Shown here one piece after another: positions 39,493 to 51,216 of a stretch of DNA of 64,000 nucleotides (position 1 is its first letter; every line of letters starts with the position of its first letter). Origin of the DNA: Maricaulis sp. (lineage in GTDB: Bacteria; Pseudomonadota; Alphaproteobacteria; Caulobacterales; Maricaulaceae). Position numbers and translations under genes: made by a program. The DNA lies in the NCBI RefSeq assembly GCF_030149235.1, contig NZ_JASBRW010000059.1:1-64000 (forward strand), in the 5' to 3' direction. Under the pieces are notes generated by a model that did not search any database, had not been told where the DNA came from, and saw only the letters and a program-made list of their open reading frames with translations.

Positions 39493-40281
39493 ATGACCCT
39501 GACTGTTGCCTCCTGGAACGTCAATTCCATCAAGGCCCGCCTGCCCAACGTGCTCGACTGGCTGCGCGAGGCCAAACCCGATGTCGCCTGCCTGCAGGAG
39601 ATCAAAACGGTAGATGAAGGCTTCCCGCGCATGGAGATCGAGGACCTCGGCTACAATATCGAGACCCATGGCCAGAAGTCCTACAATGGCGTGGCCATTC
39701 TCTCGCGCTATCCGATCGAGGAATGTGCAGCGCGACTGCCCGGCGATGAGGAGGATGAACAGGCGCGCTATCTGGAGGCGGTCATCGCTGCCGAGACGGG
39801 TCCGGTCCGGGTCGCCTCGATCTATTTGCCCAATGGCAATCCGGCCCCGGGGCCGAAATATGATTACAAGCTGGCCTGGATGGAGCGCCTCTATCAGCAC
39901 GCCAAAGGCTTGCTGGAGCTGGAGGAGCCGCTGATTCTCGCGGGAGACTACAACTGTATCCCGCGCGACAGCGATTGCTGGGATCCCGGTGTCTGGGCCG
40001 GCGACGCCCTCGCCCTGCCGCAAACCCGCGCCGCGTTCAAGAAGCTAAAATGGCTCGGCCTCACGGAAGCCTTCGAGCAGCTCGACAATCGCGGCCACCA
40101 ATACACCTTCTTCGACTATCAGGGCGGTGCCTGGCAGAAGGGCTATGGTATCCGGATCGATCATCTCCTGTGCTCGGCCCAGGCCGCCGATGCGCTGGAA
40201 AAAATCGAGATCCACACAAAGACCCGCGGTCAGGCCAAGGCGTCCGATCACATTCCGATCGTCGGCACTTTTGCACTCTAA
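39493..40281 (+). CDS. xthA: Exodeoxyribonuclease III
   Basis: 262 residues from the ATG at 39493, where the conserved TVASWNVNSIKARL begins; the track start at 39346 is spurious. LQEIKTVDEGFP, GDYNCIPRDSD, and the C-terminal SDHIPIVG are the metal and catalytic motifs of the AP endonuclease family. It cuts at abasic sites and trims 3' ends in base excision repair. Confidence 0.97.
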   Translation: MTLTVASWNVNSIKARLPNVLDWLREAKPDVACLQEIKTVDEGFPRMEIEDLGYNIETHGQKSYNGVAILSRYPIEECAARLPGDEEDEQARYLEAVIAAETGPVRVASIYLPNGNPAPGPKYDYKLAWMERLYQHAKGLLELEEPLILAGDYNCIPRDSDCWDPGVWAGDALALPQTRAAFKKLKWLGLTEAFEQLDNRGHQYTFFDYQGGAWQKGYGIRIDHLLCSAQAADALEKIEIHTKTRGQAKASDHIPIVGTFAL

Positions 40282-40330
40282 CCTCGCCCGAAACACGCAA
40301 AATTCAGGCTGGGTTCACCCGGCAGGTGTG

Positions 40331-40345
40331 TTAATGTCCTTTTAA
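40331..40345 (+). promoter_or_regulatory. CtrA-type box (TTAA-N7-TTAA) upstream of the DUF2145 module
   Basis: TTAATGTCCTTTTAAC is a perfect match to the full CtrA site, including the trailing C of the TTAAC half-site. It ends 28 bp before the ATG at 40374. CtrA is the cell-cycle master regulator in this order; activation or repression cannot be decided from position alone. Confidence 0.72.
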
Positions 40346-40373
40346 CGCGAAACCAGAAGGACGAGACACGCCG

Positions 40374-40661
40374 ATGCGCTTCATCCTTATTTCGGCTTGC
40401 ACCCTTGCCGTCTACGCCGGGCCCGCCCTGGCCCAGGACGCGAATCAAACGCAGCCCGCCGAGCAACAAATCCAGTCCCGTGGCGTGGATTACGCCCGCG
40501 ACGATTCTGACCGTGAACGGGCGCGCACCTATGCCCGCGAGACCCAGCGCATAATGCGCGAGCGTCAGGGCGGGCAGGAAAACCAGACCCAGAACGCGCC
40601 CCTGCCGATCGGGGAAACTGTCATTGTCGACAATGATGACGGTCCGGACCGGGGCGACTGA
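40374..40661 (+). CDS. Small exported protein, module 1
   Basis: 95 residues. A clean signal peptide (RFILISACTLAVYAGPALA, cut before QD) leads to a charged, Gln/Arg/Asp-rich mature part of about 74 residues with a likely helix (DDSDRERARTYARETQR) and no cysteines. I do not recognise it. It is 2 bp upstream of the first DUF2145 gene, so the two are co-expressed, and a perfect CtrA box precedes it. A different small exported protein precedes the second DUF2145 gene. Confidence 0.78.
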   Translation: MRFILISACTLAVYAGPALAQDANQTQPAEQQIQSRGVDYARDDSDRERARTYARETQRIMRERQGGQENQTQNAPLPIGETVIVDNDDGPDRGD

Positions 40662-40663
40662 TC

Positions 40664-41521
40664 ATGCGTTTGTTGGGGGTGTATTTGGCCGCGATCGCGG
40701 CACTGTTTCTGGCTCCGTCCGCAGATGCGGGCGAAAGCAATGGGCAGCCGGTCGATCGTTTTACCTTGGTCGAGATGGCCAACTTTTCCAAACAGATCGA
40801 AGCCGAACTGGCCCAGCGCGGCGCCTATGTCGCGATGGTCTTTCGGACCGGACGTGAGCGCGCCGAACTGCCCGAAGGCATTCGCTACACCCATGGCGCC
40901 TTTTGGGTTTACACCCCCATCCCGACCCAGGGCGGCGGAACGCAATACGGCTATGCCGTATACAATCTCTACCACGAGCTGGACCCGGTTACGGTCTCCA
41001 ACCTCTACCAGGACTGGCCACTGGACTTCACCCGCGGCGATATTGTCGGGCAGGTCGGGGTCATCATCCCCAATGCCGAGATGCAACAACGCATCATCGA
41101 TGTGATCGCCTCGCCCTATTTCGAAGCCCTGCACCAACCGGACTATTCCCTGCTCTCCAATCCGGCCGATGGTCGCTACCAGAACTGCAATGAGTTCATG
41201 CTCGACGTCGTCTCCTCGGCGATCTGGCAAACTGCGAGCCGCGAGCAGATCAAGGTCAATCTCGACGCCTATTTCAGCGCCTCGCGGGTCAATCTGAATT
41301 TCTTCCAGCGCTGGGTTGGACCGCTGATCGATCAGCGCCTGCGTCTCGATGACCATTATGGCGAGATCCGAACCGCGACCTTCGCCTCTATTGCGGACTT
41401 CATGCTCGCCTTCGACCTGGCTGAAGAGGAGCAGATCTTCGAGATCGATGCGCCCTTCTCCCTGGCCGAGGACACGGCTTATCCACCATCAGCGCCAGCG
41501 CCGGCCATGGCGGCAGAGTAG
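40664..41521 (+). CDS. DUF2145 family exported protein, copy 1
   Basis: 285 residues. A signal peptide ends near APSADAG. The conserved blocks are GIRYTHGAFWVY, YAVYNLYHEL, ALHQPDYSLLSNPADGRYQN and NCNEFMLDVV, the DUF2145 pattern. The order His (THGAF) then Cys (NCNEF) resembles circularly permuted NlpC/P60-like hydrolases such as YiiX and LRAT, where NCxxF holds the nucleophile; this is inference. The C-terminus has an Ala/Pro-rich tail. Copy 2 is at 42001-42804. Confidence 0.88.
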   Translation: MRLLGVYLAAIAALFLAPSADAGESNGQPVDRFTLVEMANFSKQIEAELAQRGAYVAMVFRTGRERAELPEGIRYTHGAFWVYTPIPTQGGGTQYGYAVYNLYHELDPVTVSNLYQDWPLDFTRGDIVGQVGVIIPNAEMQQRIIDVIASPYFEALHQPDYSLLSNPADGRYQNCNEFMLDVVSSAIWQTASREQIKVNLDAYFSASRVNLNFFQRWVGPLIDQRLRLDDHYGEIRTATFASIADFMLAFDLAEEEQIFEIDAPFSLAEDTAYPPSAPAPAMAAE

Positions 41522-41600
41522 ACCTCACGCCGCCGTTCCCCGGCTTTTTGTGAATCAAATTTTCCCGCTTGCCTGAATGATATTCACGGCCAGCCTGCTT

Positions 41601-41633
41601 CTCCGCGCACATGATTTCCAATGTGACACGGAG
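41601..41633 (+). promoter_or_regulatory. Two-part hairpin covering the ribosome binding site of the second small protein
   Basis: CTCCG pairs with CGGAG, and inside it CACAT pairs with ATGTG around 8 bases, with a small internal bulge. The outer 3' arm is the GGAG that lies six bases before the ATG at 41640, so the ribosome binding site would be masked. Confidence 0.45.
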
Positions 41634-41639
41634 AATGAC

Positions 41640-42014
41640 ATGAAACATCTGCATCCCACCGCCATTGCCGGAAGTGTCGCGGCCGCGCTGCTGATCAGCC
41701 CGGCCGCACAGGCCAATGACAGCGGACCGCCGGCTGCCCAAGCCTCCGGAGACAGCGCCGCAGCCTCGACAGAAGTCGCAGCCACTATCGCCTCGGGCAC
41801 CCTCGTTCTGGCGCCGAGCGCCGCCGTCCTGATTGCAGGCACGGGTGCGACCCTGGCCACCGGAGACCCGTTCTTCATCGAGGAGAGCGCGGAGCTGGCC
41901 GAAGACATGATGGAGCTGACCTTTGGCAGCGAACCGCTCAAGCTCACCGAGGAGACGATCATCGCACCACCGCCCGATGTCCCTTTCGAAGTCCGAGCCG
42001 ATGAGAACCGCTAG
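41640..42014 (+). CDS. Small exported or membrane protein, module 2
   Basis: 124 residues from the ATG at 41640. A signal peptide (HPTAIAGSVAAALLISPAAQA) is followed by an Ala/Ser-rich part, one hydrophobic segment (SGTLVLAPSAAVLIAGTGAT) and an acidic tail. I do not recognise the family, and it shows no clear similarity to the module 1 small protein. Its last 14 bases overlap the start of the second DUF2145 gene, so translation is probably coupled. Confidence 0.8.
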   Translation: MKHLHPTAIAGSVAAALLISPAAQANDSGPPAAQASGDSAAASTEVAATIASGTLVLAPSAAVLIAGTGATLATGDPFFIEESAELAEDMMELTFGSEPLKLTEETIIAPPPDVPFEVRADENR

Positions 42015-42804
42015 TCTCGCCGCCCTCTGCCTGTTGGTGCTGGGTGCGGAGGATGCGCAGGCGGGGTCCGAGGCCCGCCCTGTCACGCACTTCGCCATCG
42101 AGGACTCGGCGGATTTCGCCAAGCAGATTGAACGCGAACTGGCTGCGCGCGGTGCAAGGATCGGCATGGTTTTCCGCTCAGGCCGAGCCCGCGAAGACCT
42201 GCCCGACGGCATTCGCTATACCCATGGCGCTTTCTGGATTTATTCCGAAGTCGTCAGTGAAACTGGCGAAACACTTTTCGGCTATTCGGTGCATAATCTC
42301 TATCACGGCGAGGAGGACCAGCGTCGGTCCTATCTGGCCAAGGACTGGCCCTTGAACTTCACCCAGGGTGATGTCGTCGGCGAGGTTGGGATCATCATCC
42401 CCTCGCCGGAAATGCAGCGCCGCCTGCTTGGCCTGTTCGCCCGGGGTGAGATCAGCGCCTTGCATCAGCCGGACTATTCGCTGATCTCCAATCCGCTCGA
42501 TAGCCGCTTCCAGAACTGCAATGAATTCATGCTGGATATCGTTGCTGCGGCAGCCTGGGAGACGACCGACCGGACCTTATTGAAGACCAATCTGGCCGCC
42601 TGGCTCGATGCATCGCCGGTACAGACAAGCCTGGTCGAGCGGATCTTCGGCCCCTCCGTCGATGAGCGTATCCGTCTCGATGATCATCGCGGCACGATCC
42701 GGACCACCACCTTTGCCTCGATGGGCCAGTTCATGACCCGCTTCAACCTGGCCAGTGACGTGTATGAGCTGGACGCTGAATTCCTCGCGGACAGGGACAG
42801 CTAG
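42001..42804 (+). CDS. DUF2145 family exported protein, copy 2
   Basis: 267 residues from the ATG at 42001; the track start at 41923 runs back into the upstream gene. The signal peptide is short (SLAALCLLVLGAEDAQAG). The same blocks as copy 1 occur in the same order: GIRYTHGAFWIY, YSVHNLYHGE, ALHQPDYSLISNPLDSRFQN and NCNEFMLDIV. The Ala/Pro tail of copy 1 is missing. The shared architecture shows an old tandem duplication. It ends 4 bp before the convergent selD. Confidence 0.88.
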   Translation: MRTASLAALCLLVLGAEDAQAGSEARPVTHFAIEDSADFAKQIERELAARGARIGMVFRSGRAREDLPDGIRYTHGAFWIYSEVVSETGETLFGYSVHNLYHGEEDQRRSYLAKDWPLNFTQGDVVGEVGIIIPSPEMQRRLLGLFARGEISALHQPDYSLISNPLDSRFQNCNEFMLDIVAAAAWETTDRTLLKTNLAAWLDASPVQTSLVERIFGPSVDERIRLDDHRGTIRTTTFASMGQFMTRFNLASDVYELDAEFLADRDS

Positions 42805-42808
42805 AGCG

Positions 42809-43861
42809 CTAAACGACGCGCACTCCCGGCGTGCCGGCGGTGACCTCCCCAATCACCGCCGCATCGCTGTGTCCTTCACTGGCAAAGACCGCCAGAACCT
42901 CATCGACACTATCCGGTGCGCAGCTGACCAGAAGCCCCCCTGACGTCTGCGGATCGCACCACAGGATCTCGTCTTTTACGGACCAGTCCGACGGGGTTTC
43001 GACCTTGCCCTGCAACGAGGCCCAATTGCGGCCCGAGGCCCCGGTTTTCATGCCATCCTCGGCCAGCGTGCGCGCCTCGTCAAATACCGGCACCCGATCG
43101 CGCTCGACGGTCCCGGTGGCGCCCGCGCCTTCGCACATTTCACTGAGATGACCCAGCAGACCGAACCCGGTCACGTCCGTGATCGCGTGCACGCTATCAA
43201 GCCGCGCGAGCGCCGCGCCCGGCGTGTTCAGGCGCGTGGTCGAGGCGACCATCTGGGCATAGGCCGTTTCGCTAAGCTCGCCCCGCTTCAACGCGGCACT
43301 GAACACGCCGATACCAAGCGGTTTTCCGAGTATGAGCTTGTCGCCGGGCCGGGCACCGGCATTGGTCTTCAAACGGTCCGGATGAACCAGACCCAGCGCG
43401 ACCAGGCCGTAGATCGGCTCCGCGGCATCAATGGAATGTCCACCGGCAACCGGCGCGCCAGCGGCTTCGGCAACGGCCCGCCCGCCCGCGAGGATCGCGC
43501 GCACAGTCTCGCGCGGCAGCTTGCTGACCGGCATGCCCACGAGGGCGAGGCAGAAAATCGGTGTGGCGCCCATGGCATAGACGTCCGAGAGCGCATTGGT
43601 CGCGGCAATACGTCCGAACACCTCCGGATCATCGACAATGGGCGTGAAGAAATCGGTGGTCGCAACAAGGGCCGTGTCGTCATTGATATGCCAGACCGCG
43701 GCGTCGTCACGGGTTGCGGCGTCGACAATGAGATTGCTGGGCATGGGGAGCGCTGGTGCGCCACTGAGAATATCGCTCAGCACCGCCGGATCGAGCTTGC
43801 AGCCACAACCGCCGCCATGGGCCAGGGCGCTGAGCCGGACCGGTGCAGTGTCATCCATCAT
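42809..43861 (-). CDS. selD: Selenide, water dikinase
   Basis: 350 residues. The N-terminal GGGCGCKLDP holds the catalytic Cys (not selenocysteine) and the conserved Lys. DDAAVWHINDDTALVATTD is the metal/ATP-binding region, and DVTGFGLLGHL and DPQTSGGLLVS are SelD signatures. It makes selenophosphate from selenide and ATP. Its partner mnmH is divergent, 50 bp away, so the selenium is used for 2-selenouridine in tRNA; no selA, selB or selenocysteine tRNA is in the window. Confidence 0.97.
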   Translation of the reverse strand: MMDDTAPVRLSALAHGGGCGCKLDPAVLSDILSGAPALPMPSNLIVDAATRDDAAVWHINDDTALVATTDFFTPIVDDPEVFGRIAATNALSDVYAMGATPIFCLALVGMPVSKLPRETVRAILAGGRAVAEAAGAPVAGGHSIDAAEPIYGLVALGLVHPDRLKTNAGARPGDKLILGKPLGIGVFSAALKRGELSETAYAQMVASTTRLNTPGAALARLDSVHAITDVTGFGLLGHLSEMCEGAGATGTVERDRVPVFDEARTLAEDGMKTGASGRNWASLQGKVETPSDWSVKDEILWCDPQTSGGLLVSCAPDSVDEVLAVFASEGHSDAAVIGEVTAGTPGVRVV

Positions 43862-43911
43862 CCCAAAATCTCCGCTGATGTCCTATCTCTCAGATAAGAC
43901 AGGATCTGCCG

Positions 43912-44994
43912 ATGAACAGCATCGCCACCACAGATGACCTATCCGCGGCCGGATTGGAACGCTTCGATTGCATTATCGATGTGCGATCGCCTGCCGAATT
44001 TGCAGAAGACCATCTGCCCGGCGCGATCAATCTGCCGGTCCTCAGCGATGAGGAACGGGCCCGGATCGGCACCCATTACAAACAGGTTTCGCCTTTCGAG
44101 GCCCGACGCATGGGCGCGGCACTGACAGCGCGCAATATTGCGCACCATGTCGAGACGGCCCTTTCCGACCGGCCCAAGGATTTCAAACCGCTGATCTATT
44201 GCTGGCGCGGTGGAATGCGTTCGAACTCCATGGCCATGGTGCTCGGCGCCGTCGGCTGGCGGGCGACGCTGATCAAGGGCGGGTACCGGACCTGGCGCGA
44301 GCAGGTCTCGGCCGGGCTTGAGGCCGAGACGCCCTGGCCGGTCGTCCTGATCGACGGTCAGACCGGCACGGCCAAGACCAAACTTCTGCACATTCTCGCC
44401 AGCCGCGGCGAGCAGGTAATCGATCTGGAAGGCCTGGCCCGGCATCGCGGCTCGGTCTTCGGCGGTTTCGCCAGGGCCGAGCAACCGAGCCAGAAAGCCT
44501 TCGACACCCGGCTCTGGACGCAGATGCGGGAGCTGGATCTTCAGCGACCTATCTATGTCGAGGCCGAGAGCCGCCTGGTCGGCCGAAGGCGCGTGCCACA
44601 AGGCCTCTGGGACGCGATGCAGGCTGCACCGCGACTGGTAATCGACGCCCCGGTCCAGGCCCGGGCACGATACCTGCTGACGGCCTATCCGGACCTGGCC
44701 GACAACTCGGCCCAGCTTCGTGAAGCCATTGAAGGCCTTAAACGCTTTCACGGCGGCGAAACGATCAACCGGTGGCTCGAACTCGGCGATGCCGATGACT
44801 TCGAATCGCTGGCGGCCGAGCTGGTTGAGGCGCACTACGACCCGGCCTATGACCGGGCCCGGCAACGACACCAGCGGGGTGGGGCGGAAACCATCCTGAA
44901 GACAGACGCGCTGGACGATCAGTCCTTGGACGACCTTGCTGACCGGATTACCGCTGCAGCTCCGTCTCGCCACGCTCAACCAGCACGCGGATAA
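43912..44994 (+). CDS. mnmH: tRNA 2-selenouridine synthase (MnmH/SelU)
   Basis: 360 residues. The N-terminal rhodanese domain (DCIIDVRSPAEFAEDHLPGA) has its active Cys in LIYCWRGGMRSNSMA. A P-loop-like domain follows with DGQTGTAKTKLLH, which has Ala where a Gly is more common. The enzyme converts 2-thiouridine to 2-selenouridine at the wobble position of tRNAs for Glu, Lys and Gln, using selenophosphate from SelD. Its 3' end overlaps the convergent DUF3137 gene by 47 bp. Confidence 0.95.
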   Translation: MNSIATTDDLSAAGLERFDCIIDVRSPAEFAEDHLPGAINLPVLSDEERARIGTHYKQVSPFEARRMGAALTARNIAHHVETALSDRPKDFKPLIYCWRGGMRSNSMAMVLGAVGWRATLIKGGYRTWREQVSAGLEAETPWPVVLIDGQTGTAKTKLLHILASRGEQVIDLEGLARHRGSVFGGFARAEQPSQKAFDTRLWTQMRELDLQRPIYVEAESRLVGRRRVPQGLWDAMQAAPRLVIDAPVQARARYLLTAYPDLADNSAQLREAIEGLKRFHGGETINRWLELGDADDFESLAAELVEAHYDPAYDRARQRHQRGGAETILKTDALDDQSLDDLADRITAAAPSRHAQPARG

Positions 44995-51201: not shown

Positions 51202-51216
51202 GTGAACACTGTTCAC
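51202..51216. promoter_or_regulatory. Palindromic operator upstream of the tolC-like gene
   Basis: GTGAACACTGTTCAC has 7-bp perfect arms around one base. This size and symmetry match TetR-family operators of efflux genes. It lies 122 bp upstream of the ATG at 51080 in a 216-bp intergenic region. No regulator gene is next to it. Confidence 0.6.

Follow-up and report, generated by a model that had tools for sequence, protein, structure and literature searches.

What might two consecutive gene pairs, each encoding a small exported protein followed by a DUF2145 protein, do for a Maricaulis cell, and does the CtrA site that stands in front of them control both? In the 64-kb window (the whole stretch of DNA that was analyzed), the first-pass annotation had described a perfect CtrA site before four tightly packed genes in the order small protein, DUF2145, small protein, DUF2145. 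The site is exactly there (Table 1), and the open reading frames together with the PF09916 matches give the same order 3' of it, namely SP1 and DUF2145-a (pair A) followed by SP2 and DUF2145-b (pair B), all on the plus strand. Tight packing holds inside each pair, where the gaps had been put at 2 bp or negative and are +2 bp for SP1/DUF2145-a and a 14-bp overlap (-14) for SP2/DUF2145-b, but not between the pairs, which lie 118 bp apart. Signal peptides had also been claimed for all four proteins, and on visual inspection the N termini of SP1, SP2, DUF2145-a, and DUF2145-b do resemble Sec signal peptides. Because substitutions between relatives fall mostly at the third codon position in each of the four genes, all four open reading frames are real coding genes. 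The two larger proteins match PF09916 (DUF2145) in Pfam with E values of 1.4e-49 for DUF2145-a and 3.5e-51 for DUF2145-b (168.8 and 174 bits over 200/200 model positions; curated cut-off, 25) and share 52% identity. A search for a further DUF2145 copy in the same genome found none beyond these two, and PADLOC returned no defense-system matches.

Table 1. Features of the two small-protein/DUF2145 pairs and their surroundings, in window coordinates
Feature	Position	Strand	Basis
xth-like exonuclease III gene, syntenic neighbor	39493-40281	+	synteny
Conserved promoter block CAAAATTCA..CTGGGTTCAC, upstream of the CtrA site	40298-40318	+	conserved in 5 genomes
CtrA site TTAATGTCCTTTTAAC	40331-40346	+	exact motif match
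SP1, small exported partner of pair A	40374-40661	+	ORF, 95 aa
SP1 C-terminal motif APLPIGETVI, residues 75-84	40596-40625	+	profile match to SP2 motif, beats all shuffles
DUF2145-a (His77, Tyr161, Cys175)	40664-41521	+	ORF, 285 aa; PF09916
Palindrome CTGAATGATATTCAC, candidate operator before pair B, in the 118-bp gap	41573-41587	+	conserved upstream of SP2
SP2, small exported partner of pair B	41640-42014	+	ORF, 124 aa
SP2 C-terminal motif PLKLTEETII, residues 99-108	41934-41963	+	conservation in SP2 family; common to SP1
DUF2145-b (His75, Tyr159, Cys173), predicted permuted NlpC/P60-type	42001-42804	+	ORF, 267 aa; PF09916

The pairing of DUF2145 with a small partner is old and widespread in Proteobacteria, a conclusion that is well supported. 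We surveyed 78 loci retrieved with a DUF2145 profile, plus loci from other classes, and a small exported protein is encoded directly upstream of DUF2145 in nearly every one of them outside the Robiginitomaculaceae, often overlapping the DUF2145 gene by 1 or 4 bp. The suggestion of enzyme-partner pairs, made from this one locus, therefore survives the comparison of gene neighborhoods, as DUF2145 genes elsewhere are paired too. Among the Caulobacterales outside the Robiginitomaculaceae, an SP2-family protein or SP1 is found upstream of all full-length DUF2145 genes away from contig edges, and in the gammaproteobacteria, where gene calling had found no partner at some loci, an SP2-family profile picked up an upstream homologue at nearly all of these (at L155 a different protein stands there). 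Profile comparison identifies SP2 and the gammaproteobacterial partner as homologous (98% probability, E 3.8e-14), and it detected no relation between SP2 and the other small partner that accompanies DUF2145 in the Burkholderiales. The Burkholderiales partner (L131-L139, L170) ends in ...FIPNELGRALLHNERL, and an annotated Comamonas plasmid record carries a YiaA/YiaB-like gene in front of a small partner of this type. Loci L140-L142 (genomes G340, G541, and G624) have yet another kind of small upstream protein, a putative lipoprotein of 76 aa with no relation to the remaining partner families. In the Robiginitomaculaceae (L109-L127), DUF2145 has no small partner and follows xth, in many cases directly; in those genes whose start could be called, an N-terminal membrane segment takes the place of the cleavable signal.

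When 100 sequences were placed in a tree, the DUF2145 proteins of Maricaulis that are paired with SP1 and those paired with SP2 came out as sister clades (support 98/93), in agreement with the earlier proposal that the pairs arose by duplication and that their partners diverged. Both clades are nested among SP2-paired Maricaulaceae, which makes SP2 pairing ancestral and SP1 the changed partner. By this tree there was one duplication of the pair, and it took place inside Maricaulis. SP1 is under purifying selection, and its nine homologues are found in the Maricaulis clade without exception.

Neither SP1 nor SP2 matched a Pfam family. The two small proteins had been described as unlike each other, and this is borne out by BLAST, which finds no similarity between them, but not by profile comparison of the mature regions, which brings out a common C-terminal motif, PLxVs[DE]xVI. 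The mature regions score 23.5 against a maximum of 16.4 in 100 column shuffles, the C terminus by itself scores 22.0 against a maximum of 19.0 in 200 shuffles, and outside the motif the profiles of mature SP1 and SP2 have nothing in common. A profile match across the signal peptides was thrown out, and the mature regions alone were compared. Within the SP2 family, Pro99 and Leu100 are nearly invariant or invariant (40 sequences). The family is marked by a hydrophobic stretch (best 19-residue Kyte-Doolittle value, median 1.78), and a low-confidence model predicts SP2 to be a helical hairpin with a Pro-rich tail. SP1 is without such a stretch (-0.22 on the same measure), and its mature region is Arg-rich. 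A lipoprotein reading of SP1 (lipobox ISAC) was ruled out by inspection, as the Cys is at residue 9 and unconserved.

That DUF2145-b adopts a circularly permuted NlpC/P60 papain fold is a well-supported prediction. With the predicted model (mean pLDDT 90.9) as query, VIA-align placed YiiX (2if6) first, with a Z score of 10.8 over 170 residues and an rmsd of 4.0, followed by the B. cereus C92 peptidase 3kw0 (Z 7.8) and TseH (6v98; Z 6.9), and all three are circularly permuted NlpC/P60 enzymes. The match depends on VIA-align, because Foldseek alone gave no significant match of the model in the PDB; a sequence search of the PDB returned nothing useful. In the model, His75 starts strand 75-85 and Cys173 starts core helix 173-186, which is the order of His before Cys, with the Cys at the N terminus of the core helix, that marks the permuted class. 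Tyr159, 14 residues before Cys173, occupies the place of the signature Tyr of this class (Tyr115 and Cys128 in YiiX; PMC3142127). Across 65 sequences His75 and Tyr159 are invariant and Cys173 is nearly so. The Caulobacterales set has Cys at this position in 72 of about 81 sequences, and a few relatives carry Ser or Ala, so some of them may be inactive or serine enzymes. DUF2145 had already been classed as papain-like, with a representative in which a conserved Ser replaces the Cys and the pocket is positively charged (PMC10318531); in the present set, by contrast, Cys predominates and Ser is exceptional. DUF2145 resembles the YaeF/YiiX class (E. coli YiiX 2if6, B. cereus 3kw0) in its overall fold, in having His before Cys with the Cys starting the core helix, and in the Tyr 13-14 residues before the Cys. 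Unlike that class, it has no Pfam match to the C92 or NlpC model, has a dedicated small exported partner, and sometimes carries Ser in place of Cys.

Characterized members of the permuted class (YiiX, LnsA, Lnb, and Tox-Act1) act on fatty-acyl bonds. YiiX has a fatty acid as a ligand (PMC3142127), and the N-acylation of lipoproteins is carried out by the two-gene LnsA-LnsB system (PMC7387801). Of the others, Tox-Act1 acts as a phospholipase and DUF4105/Lnb as a lipoprotein acyltransferase (PMC12994826). Like the DUF2145 pairs, the staphylococcal LnsA-LnsB system has two genes, one of them for a permuted NlpC/P60 enzyme; LnsB, however, is a CAAX-type membrane protein of large size, and its gene does not adjoin that of LnsA, whereas SP1 and SP2 are exported proteins of 95-124 aa outside any Pfam family and are not CAAX-like. 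DUF4105/Lnb and Tox-Act1 are likewise permuted NlpC/P60 proteins and act on lipid or lipoprotein acyl groups, but DUF2145 belongs to another family, and, in contrast to the secreted antibacterial effector Tox-Act1, it carries a Sec signal itself and is not accompanied by conflict genes.

As to control, TTAA-N7-TTAAC occurs once in the window, against 0.01 expected from shuffles. The letters of the site are the same, at the same position, in the relatives L053 and L054; in L055 it keeps its position with both half-sites intact and two spacer bases changed, and L058 differs at one base of a half-site and at several positions of the spacer. Synonymous divergence between the window and L053/L054 is high (dS ~0.8 to 2.1 where computable), and since the site has been retained despite this, we regard it as a conserved footprint. 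The full TTAA-N7-TTAA pattern of the CtrA regulon is exact and conserved in four genomes, at pair A only and in one Maricaulis subclade; in the M. maris group it is missing or has degenerated, and the exact site is found at 0/49 SP2-type operons. CtrA control as first proposed is thus partly supported, by a conserved footprint at pair A in one subclade only. The genome encodes an orthologue of CtrA, 85% identical to the query from Caulobacter, and other exact CtrA sites are located at flagellar genes. Genome-wide counts of the pattern show no excess (10 versus 9 in a reversed-pattern control), so the case for CtrA stands on conservation and on the flagellar-gene sites. The conserved block upstream of the site is a possible -35 region. 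From the 5' end of the CtrA site to the SP1 ATG is 43 bp, and, if the usual -39 placement of Caulobacter CtrA full-site promoters (PMC4287350) is applied, a transcript would begin ~4 bp upstream of the ATG. The locus is like those promoters in having a full TTAA-N7-TTAA palindrome near the gene start and unlike them in its geometry, which, by this analogy, would fit either activation with an almost leaderless start or repression exerted over the -10.

A different element precedes pair B. The palindrome T[GA]AATN3ATT[CT]A is present upstream of SP2 in the window and in the 7 Maricaulis-clade relatives checked, with a background frequency of 9/2372 tiles, and most Asticcacaulis loci carry TTGAACN3GTTCAA at the corresponding place. 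In this genome a wider palindrome occurs at 10 sites, versus 0 in a control, near FA_desaturase, Lipid_desat, and FA_hydroxylase genes and also near an acyl-CoA dehydrogenase gene with a MerR gene, TolC, and a TetR/HlyD pair. CTGAATGATATTCAC is a variant with C first and TGAAT arms that lies outside this wider pattern, its first base differing from the KTRAAYNNNRTTYAM sites (L056, L057, L059, and L060 have G there), and a regulator common to both is a candidate only. A second palindrome of the same type, GTGAACACTGTTCAC, lies at 51202-51216 of the window, and the minus-strand gene that it precedes by ~120 bp encodes a TolC-like outer membrane efflux protein. In Asticcacaulis the wider palindrome is found near TetR, PlsC-type acyltransferase, MFS_2 transporter, and CreD genes. 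One Asticcacaulis TetR-family gene (L205:2080-2706) has TTGAACN3GTTCAA just upstream of its own start, and its product is a candidate regulator of the Asticcacaulis SP2-DUF2145 pair; a search for its orthologue in this genome found no clear one (best E 1e-6). The palindromes resemble the operators of acyl-responsive TetR regulators of the FabR/DesT type in being short, in having TGAAC-like arms, and in standing at desaturase genes; the arms of the window palindrome, though, read TGAAT.

Neighboring genes gave no consistent functional hint across loci except for synteny with xth, which is upstream of DUF2145 in Maricaulis, Phenylobacterium, and the Robiginitomaculaceae and is probably outside the function of the pairs. 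Downstream of the pairs (window 42809-44994) are what we take, reading the names from sequence, to be a selD-like gene (minus strand) and a gene resembling mnmH/selU for tRNA 2-selenouridine synthase (plus strand), and the two stay beside the pairs in several Maricaulis genomes. A divergent XRE-like regulator gene lies beside DUF2145 pairs in beta- and gammaproteobacteria (L131, L132, L144, L150, L151, L152, and L158).

Our results lead us to propose, with a probability of roughly 40%, that each pair consists of an envelope acyl-bond enzyme and its small partner, duplicated in Maricaulis, and that copy A was re-partnered and linked to CtrA. Each pair would encode an exported cysteine enzyme of the permuted NlpC/P60 type (DUF2145) with a dedicated small exported partner, and in the cell envelope DUF2145 would most likely attack or transfer fatty-acyl groups (of phospholipid, lipoprotein, or lipo-amino acid), with Cys173, His75, and Tyr159 as its active site. 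SP2 would most likely hold DUF2145 at the membrane, the hydrophobic hairpin being inserted in the membrane or lying on it and the conserved C-terminal tail docking on the enzyme. Copy B would have retained SP2 and a palindromic operator of the type also present at lipid and efflux genes, while copy A would have retained the position beside xth, gained a soluble, Arg-rich partner that keeps the tail motif only, and come under CtrA in one Maricaulis subclade. The pairing, the duplication, the predicted fold class, the placing of the residues, and the conserved DNA sites come out of the computations, and from them we infer the substrate, the docking, the membrane role of SP2, and the direction of CtrA control. 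The anchor role is supported by the N-terminal membrane segment of the partner-less Robiginitomaculaceae DUF2145, but this clade represents a single evolutionary event, and the role does not fit pair A, because SP1 lacks a hydrophobic segment. Whether the pairs form a new two-protein envelope acyl-modifying system, in which a permuted enzyme would be held or gated via the partner tail under an envelope-lipid regulator, with one duplicated copy re-partnered and put under CtrA so that editing of envelope lipids or lipoproteins would be timed with division, seems doubtful.

Since DUF2145 is exported and belongs to the same superfamily as the ordinary NlpC/P60 proteins, it might instead be a peptidoglycan hydrolase (amidase or endopeptidase) with the small partner as its activator or inhibitor. 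Inhibitor genes do sit beside other papain-like proteases, the Asticcacaulis pair adjoins a dapD-like gene, and a PBP1-type gene of that genus has the palindrome; the dapD-like neighbor, however, is confined to one genus, and the nearest folds are those of the permuted lipid-type branch and not of canonical P60, which makes such a hydrolase unlikely. The small partner could also be the substrate, with DUF2145 acylating, deacylating, or clipping SP1 and SP2 as their tail enters the active site. The tail motif is the sole element common to the two partners, and partner and enzyme genes are nearly always adjacent, but we find this distinctly unlikely given that the Robiginitomaculaceae retain DUF2145 without a partner and that the Burkholderiales partner has no detectable relation.

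Replacement of Cys173 by Ser or Ala in some members, along with the conserved Ser and positively charged pocket of the published representative (PMC10318531), would be in line with a non-catalytic binding protein built on a papain scaffold, the pair then being a structural envelope module, yet the prevalence of Cys (72/~81 sequences of the Caulobacterales set) and the invariance of His75 and Tyr159 in 65 sequences render this quite improbable. The first-pass annotation had favored a single CtrA-controlled operon in which both pairs are expressed through the cell cycle. A perfect and conserved CtrA site, the encoded orthologue, and the exact sites at flagellar genes all speak for this version, which nevertheless is not supported as proposed and which we consider very unlikely: pair B has its own palindrome, two other genes stand between pair A and pair B in L054 and L055, and none of 49 SP2-type operons has the exact site.

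DUF2145 is widespread and has remained almost unstudied in the literature, with a single paper among 5.39 million mentioning it by name. What the family gains here is a fold class, a candidate for the active site, a partner family that is genetically inseparable from it and absent from Pfam, and a link in regulation to genes for lipids and efflux, and with these proposals in hand its function becomes testable. The duplication in Maricaulis offers a natural experiment, one enzyme having switched both its partner and its controller.
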